A stretch of DNA of 23,024 nt from positions 1 to 23,024 of the IMG/VR virus record IMGVR_UViG_3300025122_004324; one strand, given 5' to 3'. Shown here piece by piece: positions 1,677-8,105 of this stretch (the first letter of the stretch is position 1; the number at the start of each line of letters is the position of its first letter). The DNA comes from a virus. The notes under the pieces were generated by a model. That model searched no databases, was not told where the DNA came from, and saw only the letters and a list, made by a program, of their open reading frames with translations. The translations under genes were made by a program, and so were the position numbers.

Positions 1677-1710
1677 CTCCCGCAGGGAGGCCCGGGGTTA
1701 CAGGGGCCTC
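1677..1710 (+). promoter_or_regulatory. Structured RNA element, copy 1 (tandem or alternative hairpins)
   Basis: Right after the SSB stop codon, CTCCC-GCA-GGGAG (1677-1689) can form one hairpin. GAGGCCC (1687-1693) pairs with GGGCCTC (1704-1710) around the loop GGGGTTACAG. The two helices share bases 1687-1689, so they compete or form a pseudoknot. No T-run follows, so it is not an intrinsic terminator. A second copy lies at 3075-3112 with a compensatory change in the stem. A role in translation control, mRNA stability or processing is inference. Confidence 0.6.
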
Positions 1711-1728
1711 AAAAAACTTATGATAACG

Positions 1729-1752
1729 CCACCAGCGGATCGCTAAAGGTGG
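1729..1752 (+). promoter_or_regulatory. Stem-loop in the leader of the AIPR-like gene
   Basis: CCACC-AGCG (1729-1737), loop GAT, then CGCT (1741-1744), an AAA bulge and GGTGG (1748-1752): nine base pairs in total. It ends about 10 bases before the purine-rich ribosome site of the gene at 1774, so it could influence initiation. No second copy was found before the recombinase gene. Confidence 0.45.
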
Positions 1753-1773
1753 AACTATTGAAAGGAAAAGAAA

Positions 1774-3072
1774 ATGATTAAGTTAAAAATTTATGGCGAT
1801 ATTAGAAACTCTATGATTAGAGTGCCACTCGCCCAAGATAAAAATGGTAATGACCTGTGTTTGCACATGCTTATTGTGCAACCCAACAGTGCTCATTCAC
1901 TAGCGCAGATTCCCAAGGGGGCTAACCCGCGGGATCTTGCACCCGATACCAAGTTGTTTAAAGACATCAAAGCCACCTATGAGAAGGGTCCGATGTTCCT
2001 GGTATATAATGGCGGCATGACTGCCACTATTGATACAGGCTCTCTGACAACGGTAAAGCAGGACAATGTTGACTACATTGTGTTTTCATGTGATGACGAG
2101 GACAACGGCCATTACGATGGACAACACTCGGAAGGCGCCGTTACGGCCGCGATTGAGAACAAAGACCTAGGAGAAAACAATGCTCCATTCCTGATAATTT
2201 TGGTGGATGATGGGGTATATCCTGACAGCGACGCTCGTCGCACGGCCGCGAAATGCACCAACAACCGCTCGGCTCAACAGCTAAAGAGTGAAATGGATAT
2301 CCGCGGGACCTTTGAAAATATTAAGAAAGAGATTAATTATTGCGCTGTTGAAAACATTCAATGGAAGCAGAATCAACTGAATGCTGCAGGCGATGCAATG
2401 AAGCCCGACTGCGATGTTTTGCAAGTGATTAATATGCTAGGAGCTTTCCTTCCCATTGCTTCGGTAAGTGGCGGTGAAGTGGGAGACATTAGCAAGTGGG
2501 AGAAGCAGGGATCAAGCGCCTTTAAACATTTAGAAAATGAAACGCTGGCGCCCTATCTGAACGCAACCTATGAACATATTGATTTTATACTAGATATGGC
2601 TGATTTTATTCGTATGACAACCCGAGAAGTTCTAGGCGACAAGGCTGAGAGTTTCGGAATTGTTAAGAAGAATACTGCCGGAGAACGCAAGAAAGATTTT
2701 GAGAATCGTAAGCCTCTTCAGACACAACTCTTCAACGGTGCCCTACAAGAATATGGCTTGAATAAGGATATTATGCCTCTGATATTGCATGCAATTATCG
2801 ATGCTACATTTGAATATGATGAATGTCGAGAAAAATATGTTACGGACTATAAGCTTGAAGAACTCAAGGCAATGTGGCTTGAAGGCGGTTTCGGTGTACT
2901 GCATGTAATTGAAACAGAATTCAAAAATTGTTTTGAAGATAAGTATAAGAGTCGATGGTCTGATTTTGTTCTTGACACGCTTTTGTGGACTAAGGTTCGG
3001 AATGCTTTCCGGCGAGTTCCTTGGCGAGCCAAGGATTGGAAGAGTCACCTCAATCACGAACTGGTAGGATAG
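1774..3072 (+). CDS. AIPR / DGQHR-superfamily protein
   Basis: A 432-residue protein. Several segments resemble the AIPR (abortive infection phage resistance) domain: KGANPRDL near residue 50, a following helix, FLVYNGGMT near 75-83 where AIPR proteins carry a similar Asn-Gly motif, and TNNRSAQQLKSEMD near 160. DGQHS at 115-119 resembles the DGQHR motif of DndB-related proteins. Bacterial members occur in phage-defence and DNA-phosphorothioation contexts; their chemistry is poorly known. Here it sits between SSB and recombinase genes, which suggests a role in DNA metabolism or counter-defence, but that is inference. The ATG is preceded by GAAAGGAAAAG. The leader of about 110 bases carries several stem-loops, suggesting post-transcriptional control. 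It could be only a distant relative; no catalytic residues can be assigned. Confidence 0.55.
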   Translation: MIKLKIYGDIRNSMIRVPLAQDKNGNDLCLHMLIVQPNSAHSLAQIPKGANPRDLAPDTKLFKDIKATYEKGPMFLVYNGGMTATIDTGSLTTVKQDNVDYIVFSCDDEDNGHYDGQHSEGAVTAAIENKDLGENNAPFLIILVDDGVYPDSDARRTAAKCTNNRSAQQLKSEMDIRGTFENIKKEINYCAVENIQWKQNQLNAAGDAMKPDCDVLQVINMLGAFLPIASVSGGEVGDISKWEKQGSSAFKHLENETLAPYLNATYEHIDFILDMADFIRMTTREVLGDKAESFGIVKKNTAGERKKDFENRKPLQTQLFNGALQEYGLNKDIMPLILHAIIDATFEYDECREKYVTDYKLEELKAMWLEGGFGVLHVIETEFKNCFEDKYKSRWSDFVLDTLLWTKVRNAFRRVPWRAKDWKSHLNHELVG

Positions 3073-3074
3073 TA

Positions 3075-3112
3075 TCCCCCCCACGGGGAGGCACAGGGTA
3101 ATCAGGTGCCTC
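3075..3112 (+). promoter_or_regulatory. Structured RNA element, copy 2
   Basis: After the AIPR-like stop codon, a C-run (3076-3082) can pair with GGGG (3085-3088). GAGGCAC (3088-3094) pairs with GTGCCTC (3106-3112) around the loop AGGGTAATCAG. Compared with copy 1, one stem pair changes from C-G to A-T with pairing kept, and the loop keeps GGGT..-CAG. It ends about 20 bases before the recombinase start and just before its ribosome site. Confidence 0.6.
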
Positions 3113-3132
3113 AAATTAAGTGGAGAAAGAAA

Positions 3133-4242
3133 ATGGCAAAGTCAAAATCAAAAGTAGGAACCGTATCAATAACCGATCTGCGTTCCCTTATTAATAAGGC
3201 TTCCGGCATGGAAGTCGCATACAATCTCAAGGATGAGAATCCAACCGAAGTTAAGGAATGGATTCCCACAGGATCTCGTTGGCTCGACAGCATTATCTGT
3301 CGTGGAAAACTGGCCGGGATTCCTGTCGGAAAGATTTCAGAAATTGCAGGCCTGGAATCCACAGGCAAGTCTTTTATGGCAGCACAAATTGCAGGGAATG
3401 CCCAGAGAATGGGCATGAATGTAATCTACATGGATGCAGAGTCGGCGATCGATCCAGCGTTCCTTGAACGCGCAGGGTGTGATCTGGAGACGCTTATTTA
3501 CGTCCAGGTTCAGTCAGTCGAGCAAGTACTTGAAACTATTGAACAAATCCTTAATAGCGGAGCAGAGAAAACCCTGTTTATTTGGGATTCGCTTGCGCTT
3601 ACCCCGTCCATTTCTGACGTAGAGGGGGATTTCAACCCTCAATCGTCGATGGCAGTAAAGGCGCGCATTCTTGCGAAGGGAATGTCAAAGCTTACAATCC
3701 CTATTGCGAACAGCCAATCGGCCTTCTTGGTTCTGAACCAGTTGAAGACTAATATTACAAGGTTTCCCGCCGAGGCCATGACTACACCCTACGTCACTCC
3801 GGGAGGGAAGGCTATGATTTATGCTTACTCTCTGCGTGTTTGGCTGACAGGACGCAAGGCCAAGGCCAGCTTTGTTCTGGATGATAACGGATTCCGTATT
3901 GGATCGGAAGTTAAGGTCAGGCTGGAAAAGTCTCGCTTCGGAACACAGGGGCGTAATTGCGCCTTCAAGATTCTATGGGGGGAAGATGTAGGAGTCCAAG
4001 ACGAGGAATCTTGGCTCGAAGCTATTAAGTCTTCAGAGAATCTTAAGAGAGCGGGAGCATGGTACTCTTTGGTACACGATGATGGCTCAGAAGAAAAGTT
4101 TCAGGGCTCTCATTGGGTTGAGAAGTTACAGGACGAGCGGTTTAGACAACGCGTCTTCGATATTATGGATGAGGAAATCATAATGAAGTTCGATAATCGC
4201 ACAGGGAATGCACAAGACCATTATACTTTAGACGATGAGTAA
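3133..4242 (+). CDS. uvsX: RecA/UvsX-like recombinase
   Basis: A 369-residue ATP-dependent strand-exchange protein. Walker A is GLESTGKS at residues 73-80. A following strand ends VIYMDAESAID, and the Walker B strand is TLFIWDSLAL. The motif FLVLNQLKTNI matches the RecA region that ends in a conserved Asn-Gln before the DNA-binding loop, and a Gly-rich TPYVTPGGKAMIYAYSLRVWL segment follows. The C-terminus is acidic, ending DDE. The ATG at 3133 is chosen because GGAGAAAG lies just upstream; an in-frame ATG at 3106 lies inside the stem-loop and has no ribosome site. It would act with the SSB in recombination-dependent replication and repair. RecA versus UvsX is a naming matter; the phage context favours UvsX. 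Confidence 0.9.
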   Translation: MAKSKSKVGTVSITDLRSLINKASGMEVAYNLKDENPTEVKEWIPTGSRWLDSIICRGKLAGIPVGKISEIAGLESTGKSFMAAQIAGNAQRMGMNVIYMDAESAIDPAFLERAGCDLETLIYVQVQSVEQVLETIEQILNSGAEKTLFIWDSLALTPSISDVEGDFNPQSSMAVKARILAKGMSKLTIPIANSQSAFLVLNQLKTNITRFPAEAMTTPYVTPGGKAMIYAYSLRVWLTGRKAKASFVLDDNGFRIGSEVKVRLEKSRFGTQGRNCAFKILWGEDVGVQDEESWLEAIKSSENLKRAGAWYSLVHDDGSEEKFQGSHWVEKLQDERFRQRVFDIMDEEIIMKFDNRTGNAQDHYTLDDE

Positions 4243-6746: not shown

Positions 6747-8105
6747 ATGGAATCTAAAGAGAAGGTAACCTTTTCTCGCTACGGCAAATCATTTCAAGAG
6801 CAGTTGTGTATGGTCATTCTCGATGACCGTCCTTTTGCGGACCAGATAGAAGAAGTTCTCGACATCAATTTTTTGGAGCTTCGATATCTAAAACTTTTCA
6901 CCAAAGTAATATTTCAGTACAGACAGAAGTATGGGGTTCATCCATCGCGACAAATTCTCGGAACGATTTTGCGTTCAGGGATTGACGATGAAAATGAAAT
7001 GACGCAACAGCAAGTCAGAGAATATTACGCTCGTATTATGGCGGCGCACCCTGAAAACCAAGAGTATATTAAAGACACAGCGTTAGATTTTTGTCGCAAA
7101 CAAAACCTAAAGTCGGCGATGATTAAGTCGATTGGTCTTTTGCAGAGTTCGTCTTTTGATGAGATTGCCGTAGTGATCAACAACTCACTCAAGCTCGGTG
7201 CAGACAACAACGGCGGTTATGATTGGAAGAAAGACTTCGAAGAACGCTTTAAGCCCCGATTCAGGAACCCCGTTACTACGGGCTGGCCTCTCATAGACAA
7301 CATCTGCCAAGGGGGCCTCGGACAAAAGGAACTCGGCGTAGTAATAGCCCCGACAGGCGCCGGTAAATCCATGGCCCTGGTACACCTGGGAACACAGGCC
7401 CTTAAAGATGGCAAGACGGTAGTTCATTACACGTTGGAGTTACAAGATACGGTGGTGGGCTCCCGCTACGATAGCTGTCTAACACGGATTGAGTTGGGTG
7501 ATCTGATGACATTTAAAGAAAAGATTTATGAAGAGGTGCAAGACATCGAAGGGCGCCTAATCATCAAAGAGTATCCTACCAAGTCGGCCTCTACTCATAC
7601 CCTTAAAACGCACCTGGAACGTTTACGCATGAAGGACGTTCCCATTGACATGATCATAGTAGATTATGCAGATCTTTTGCGGCCCGTAACTGCCCAGAGA
7701 GAGAAGCGCAATGAACTTGAATCTATCTACGAAGAGCTTCGCGGCCTGGCGCAAGAATATAAGTGTCCTGTGTGGACCGCTTCCCAGACCAATCGATCGG
7801 GCCTCAACGCCGAGGTTATAACTATGGAATCCATCTCCGAGGCATTCAACAAATGCTTTGTTTCGGATTTTATATTTAGCATCTCACGAACGACCGATGA
7901 TAAGCTGGCAAACACAGGAAGGGTATTTATTGCTAAAAATAGGAACGGTCCTGATGGTATAATATATCCATTGTTTATGGATACCAGCACAGTATCTATG
8001 AAGATCCTAGAACCAACTGAAGAAACCGAGGTAGAAGTGAGTCCGCAGGCGCAGAAGCAAAAGTTGGCCGAGAGATATAAGAAGTTTAAAGACGGGAATA
8101 GATAA
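6747..8105 (+). CDS. dnaB: Replicative DNA helicase, DnaB/gp41-like
   Basis: A 452-residue RecA-fold hexameric helicase. The N-terminal ~150 residues are helical, as in the DnaB/gp41 N-terminal domain. Walker A is APTGAGKS at 201-208, followed by a VVHYTLELQ strand (motif H1a-like glutamate). Walker B is MIIVDYADLL with D306. A motif H3-like WTASQTNRSG and a C-terminal basic FIAKNRNGPDG segment (arginine finger region) complete the helicase core. ATG 6747 is preferred over GTG 6741 because GAGAGAGG is well spaced for it. The next start codon lies one base after the stop. A matching primase is not in this window. Confidence 0.9.
   Translation: MESKEKVTFSRYGKSFQEQLCMVILDDRPFADQIEEVLDINFLELRYLKLFTKVIFQYRQKYGVHPSRQILGTILRSGIDDENEMTQQQVREYYARIMAAHPENQEYIKDTALDFCRKQNLKSAMIKSIGLLQSSSFDEIAVVINNSLKLGADNNGGYDWKKDFEERFKPRFRNPVTTGWPLIDNICQGGLGQKELGVVIAPTGAGKSMALVHLGTQALKDGKTVVHYTLELQDTVVGSRYDSCLTRIELGDLMTFKEKIYEEVQDIEGRLIIKEYPTKSASTHTLKTHLERLRMKDVPIDMIIVDYADLLRPVTAQREKRNELESIYEELRGLAQEYKCPVWTASQTNRSGLNAEVITMESISEAFNKCFVSDFIFSISRTTDDKLANTGRVFIAKNRNGPDGIIYPLFMDTSTVSMKILEPTEETEVEVSPQAQKQKLAERYKKFKDGNR

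Follow-up and report, generated by a model that had tools for sequence, protein, structure and literature searches.

Two stem-loops that follow consecutive genes in a virus genome, E1 and E2, were confirmed by sequence comparison to be members of a family of predicted H-type pseudoknot RNAs of ~35 nt, which is unlisted in Rfam 15. The stretch of DNA analyzed, referred to here as the window, is the 23,024-nt record IMGVR_UViG_3300025122_004324 (positions 1 to 23,024; ~23 kb), and all features given for it lie on the plus strand. Its genes include those for a gp32-like single-strand DNA-binding protein (SSB), a RecA/UvsX-like recombinase and a DnaB-like helicase. The gp32-like gene (882–1664; 260 aa) matches Pfam PF08804 (gp32, 6e-14) and phrog_1192 (SSB, 2e-21), and its stop codon is followed after ~10 nt by E1 (1674–1712). 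Next comes ORF2 (1774–3072; 432 aa), an AIPR-like cargo gene flanked by the two elements, with E2 (3075–3114) beginning ~3 nt past its stop codon. The recombinase gene lies downstream of E2 (3133–4242; Pfam RecA, 1e-37; phrog_97, UvsX-like, 6e-58).

The family was defined using a covariance model, R1, built from 49 distinct copies (alignment A1), which scores E1 at 59.1 bits and E2 at 56.1 bits. In E1, the first pseudoknot stem, S1, pairs CCC (1679–1681) with GGG (1695–1697). Between these strands lie loop L1, GCAGG (1682–1686; conserved form RCAGG), and the 5' strand of stem S2, GAGGCCC (1687–1693), whose partner GGGCCTC (1704–1710) follows loop L3, TTACAG (1698–1703). In E2, S1 is again CCC (3080–3082) with GGG (3096–3098), and S2 pairs GAGGCAC (3088–3094) with GTGCCTC (3106–3112). 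The hairpin loop is 10 nt in E1 (GGGGTTACAG) and 11 nt in E2 (AGGGTAATCAG). Both stem-loops that the sequence-only reading had proposed are present at these sites, and the C-G to A-T change that it saw between them is genuine (1692–1705 versus 3093–3107). The folding energies of E1 and E2 on their own are unremarkable (z of -0.5 and -1.5), so the two copies would not suffice and the case rests on comparison.

The consensus consists of S1, NNCC:GGNN (3–5 bp); L1, RCAGG; S2, GAGGCAY:RUGCCUC (7 bp); and an L3 that ends in ACAG. S2 is paired in 100% of the A1 sequences, and at three of its pairs both partners vary. For scans of covariation, either one S2 strand or both S1 strands were left unspecified in the descriptor, and the exchanges recorded for S2 are A-U/G-C, A-U/C-G and C-G/U-A. 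When the 3' strand of S2 was free, the matches listed contained 949 Watson-Crick, 79 G.T and 1 A.C combinations, and this 79:1 ratio of wobbles identifies the sense strand as the one that folds. As a covariance model cannot encode a pseudoknot, the S1 statistics came from separate custom scripts. With S1 free, its first three pairs form in 91 of 99 distinct copies among the matches listed, compared with a mean of 40 and a maximum of 53 in 2000 shuffles that ignore kinship. The diversity of compensating pair types is a stronger argument than the shuffle statistics. These types comprise CCC:GGG, ACC:GGU, UCC:GGA, GCC:GGC, GGC:GCC and CGC:GCG and, in longer stems, AACC:GGUU, AUCC:GGAU, AGCC:GGCU, AGGC:GCCU, ACGC:GCGU and UCGC:GCGA.

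The C-run and G-run at each copy had been thought to form either an alternative helix or a pseudoknot. It is the pseudoknot pairing, CCC:GGG in both E1 and E2, that is conserved. The local alternative, CUCCC with GGGAG, was rejected, as it is lost where the 5' strand becomes AACC, AUCC, GGC or CGC. The loops are conserved as well: CAGG occurs in 230 of 236 distinct copies among the matches listed (CAGG/CGGG being part of the descriptor), and L3 ends in ACAG in 158 of those 236. In five loci (L120, L129, L130, L243 and L304), an additional hairpin is present within L3, whose arms vary by locus and apparently remain paired. The idea of an unlisted structured RNA, which had been made to depend on covariation or conservation in related phages, is borne out by clear covariation of both S1 and S2 among relatives. 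Searches of the window region and of four divergent loci gave no Rfam match at E≤10, and no Rfam 15 family reached its gathering score at the element.

The window gp32 protein was used as a query to collect 80 loci, nearly all of which have the element soon after the gp32 stop codon, regardless of the gene that follows. R1 found 153 strong copies across 81 loci, all in the sense orientation and all in the gp32–recA interval. Even contigs of 148–194 kb have 2–3 strong copies each, every one of them in this interval. A loose descriptor gave at least 473 instances (at least 236 distinct), compared with 8 in reversed or complemented controls; these totals are lower bounds, and the sources are uncultivated, mostly marine phage sequences. 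In a context-free pattern scan, almost all of the matches listed are gp32–recA intervals, with gp32 identity as low as ~40%. One pattern match, L160, was missed by the covariance model and apparently lies inside a coding region; it was set aside as chance.

Outside these sequences, the 50,697 isolated-phage records had no match above chance level, and there was no copy in PP395634, SPO1 or LysYB2, named phages with distant gp32-like genes. A bacterial or plasmid origin was rejected: plasmid matches are at chance level, and the single match in species genomes, L238 (CP070664.1, a WOR-3 MAG), is itself a gp32–element–recA locus. This locus sits within a 2.8-Mb MAG chromosome and may be a prophage, a mis-binned phage contig or a clue to the host. 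A literature search found no publication on the element or on a gene-32 covariation study.

The element is placed with respect to the upstream gene and lies ahead of the next RBS, mostly in operons for replication or recombination. Among distinct copies in the matches listed, the distance from the stop codon to S1 has quartiles of 6, 8 and 10 nt and a peak at 5–8 nt. The distance from the element to the next start codon has quartiles of 22, 26 and 31 nt and a minimum of 16 nt in the 213 cases listed, so that placement is tighter to the upstream stop than to the downstream start. A sense ORF ends within 150 nt upstream of 207 of 211 distinct copies listed, as opposed to 99 of 211 in the antisense control; L196 and L197 are among the few without one close by. 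The commonest junction is a gp32-like SSB gene, the element and recA, and in a minority (counts by gene context are approximate) the element adjoins helicase, ssb, polA, MoxR or tRNA genes. These include a UvsW-like helicase gene downstream (L257, L259 and L285), a copy between a 212-aa gene and a UDG-polA fusion (L275) and copies after a MoxR-like ATPase gene (L294) and a canonical ssb gene (L344). Overall, the element is preceded by unrelated genes of many kinds. In a 172-kb contig (L329, 1422–1570, minus strand), a copy lies between a nucleotidyltransferase-like gene and tRNA-Thr, 9 nt past a TAG, separated by a few nt from the tRNA, and has an inserted hairpin in L3. As this copy precedes a tRNA, there is no ORF start directly downstream for it to regulate.

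Taken together, the stop-linked position, the variety of upstream genes and the tRNA case favor an intercistronic element that may act on the mRNA 3' end of the upstream gene, in processing or stability. This is held tentatively, at somewhat short of even likelihood. Of the functions suggested from the window alone, which were a binding site for the gp32-like protein or a processing/stability element, the latter appears to fit the positional data best. Here, the mRNA would be cleaved somewhere downstream of the element, and the compact pseudoknot would block 3'→5' exonucleases immediately past the stop codon. Each gene would then be preserved as a translatable unit composed of RBS, ORF, stop and pseudoknot, and an abundant message, for example that of gp32, would decay independently of its neighbors. 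There is a precedent in T4, where the gene 32 mRNA is unusually stable and RNase E cuts near the stop codon (PMC3014915). Four points weigh against this reading. Conservation of the loop sequences RCAGG and ACAG points to a tertiary fold or a specific binding partner more than to a mere roadblock; a general stabilizer need not show the bias toward SSB, RecA, helicase and polymerase genes; a few copies, L196 and L197, do not closely follow an ORF; and compact phage genomes may place everything close to stop codons regardless.

The bias in context, the conserved loops and the G-poor linker keep a second reading viable, in which the element would be an operator for the phage SSB. By analogy to T4 gp32 acting on its own leader, free SSB would bind the pseudoknot and spread over the A/U-rich linker and the next RBS, thereby repressing recA, helicase or polymerase until it is titrated by ssDNA. 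This is possible, with a minority share of our confidence. A gp32-like gene is upstream of most copies and a canonical ssb gene is upstream of one, while the genes downstream include recA, UvsW-like helicase and polA. In addition, the first ~9 nt past the element contain only 0–7% G, which resembles the T4 pseudoknot followed by an unstructured A/U tract (PMC535899). The T4, T2 and RB69 operators share with the element an H-type pseudoknot, an association with gene 32 and a subsequent A/U-rich stretch and RBS. In T4, the operator sits in the gene 32 5' leader (PMC535899, PMC3014915), whereas the element follows gp32 and various other genes, and R1 gave no strong hit ahead of gp32, either in the window or in the other loci searched. 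The proposed analogy to T4 gene 32 control therefore does not hold for the arrangement. The operator reading is also opposed by the tighter placement relative to the upstream stop and by the copy before a tRNA. Furthermore, a phrog_1192 (gp32-like) match is absent in 10 of 11 second-context contigs, and gp32 was rejected as an obligatory partner; as these contigs are fragments, this does not prove absence, and other SSBs are possible. A broader version is doubtful: a portable sensor of ssDNA status, in which a phage SSB, gp32-like or other, would bind the pseudoknot and so govern, in phages unrelated to one another, how genes for replication and recombination and the cargo genes are expressed.

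Two further readings place the function in transcription or in translation of the next gene. A role as a partial terminator, or as an antitermination RNA that targets RNA polymerase, is consistent with the GC-rich stem and with T-runs of at least 5 downstream of 59 of 235 distinct copies listed. The reading is unlikely, since the T-tract is missing from most of the window copies' clade and from both E1 and E2, as had been observed at the outset; furthermore, the pseudoknot itself covaries and copies are repeated at successive junctions of one operon. A switch controlled by a ligand or protein, riboswitch-like or otherwise, that governs translation of the next gene would suit a small pseudoknotted RNA with conserved loops that lies 16–31 nt ahead of start codons. 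The downstream genes share no common pathway, one copy lies ahead of a tRNA, and the sequences inspected showed no alternative pairing that involves the SD, which makes such a switch quite improbable.

The gp32–recA interval varies in gene content, with the element commonly at each junction. Larger inserts resemble defense genes, being MzaB-like HATPase, NsnA-like DUF262, D12 methyltransferase and AIPR-like. The first three types of cargo were seen in L001, L073, L077, L059, L013 and L178. An ORF of L015 matches Pfam AIPR at E 0.001, which is under the curated cut-off, and is 57% identical to ORF2. The AIPR-like family recurs in L015, L277 and L292 (25–57% identity to ORF2), with conserved NGG and GHYDGQH motifs. 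In L029, two small conserved ORFs (67 and 62 aa) lie between elements (6953–7156 and 7216–7404) and are also present in other loci; neither matches a PHROG family. In sequence comparisons, the element is a boundary mark of what appear to be swappable defense-like cargo genes, and the interval looks like a defense-gene hot spot.

Identity between relatives switches at the element in 14 of 35 pairs, which are not independent, compared with 0/18, 0/29 and 3/28 at three control points, and in L075/L076 the crossover falls within the element. These switches, and the copies that flank cargo, would be expected of a recombination or replication site that acts at the DNA level, folding as ssDNA and mobilizing the cargo. 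We regard such a site as a poor candidate: copies are nearly always sense to the genes and past stop codons, and switching is expected wherever different genes are inserted. With an upstream 3'-end element, the self-contained unit of RBS, ORF, stop and pseudoknot is proposed to make cargo genes exchangeable at junctions by homologous recombination. Stimulation of stop-codon readthrough or frameshifting, for which the spacing of 5–8 nt past the stop resembles that of known stimulators, was rejected as most improbable, since most of the stop codons are TAA (121 of 152) and none of the frames yields a consistent extended product.

Known systems offer partial parallels. PeSLs, the mobile regulatory cassettes described in T4-type phages, reportedly couple an early promoter to a stem-loop (Arbiol et al., 2010). 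They too are repeated intergenic stem-loops bordering swappable genes; in contrast, the present RNA is a pseudoknot that covaries, with no evident promoter. A promoter-like 9/12 match overlaps E1, but matches of such quality occur near chance frequency. STAXI (RF01728) consists of tandem pseudoknots of Enterobacteriales, often with UUCG tetraloops (PMC2864571). Like STAXI, the element is a simple, repeated pseudoknot near SSB and DNA-handling genes (here gp32, recA, helicase, polA and ssb), and both raise the question of RNA versus ssDNA. Unlike STAXI, the element occurs as scattered single copies at individual gene junctions, and its stems and loops differ; the RF01728 model matched neither the window region nor any of four divergent loci at E values up to 10. 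The L17 downstream element (RF01708; PMC2864571) is a candidate structured RNA of a bacterial 3' UTR, to which the phage element is similar, but the genes and organisms differ and the phage element has no Rfam match.

The element represents a structured RNA family outside Rfam with strong comparative support, comprising hundreds of copies in which both helices covary. It occupies a near-fixed slot between a stop codon and the next gene in uncultivated, mostly marine phages, and flags the gp32–recA interval as what looks like a hot spot of defense-like cargo. It also provides a testable handle on the control of SSB/RecA-type genes in these uncultivated phages.
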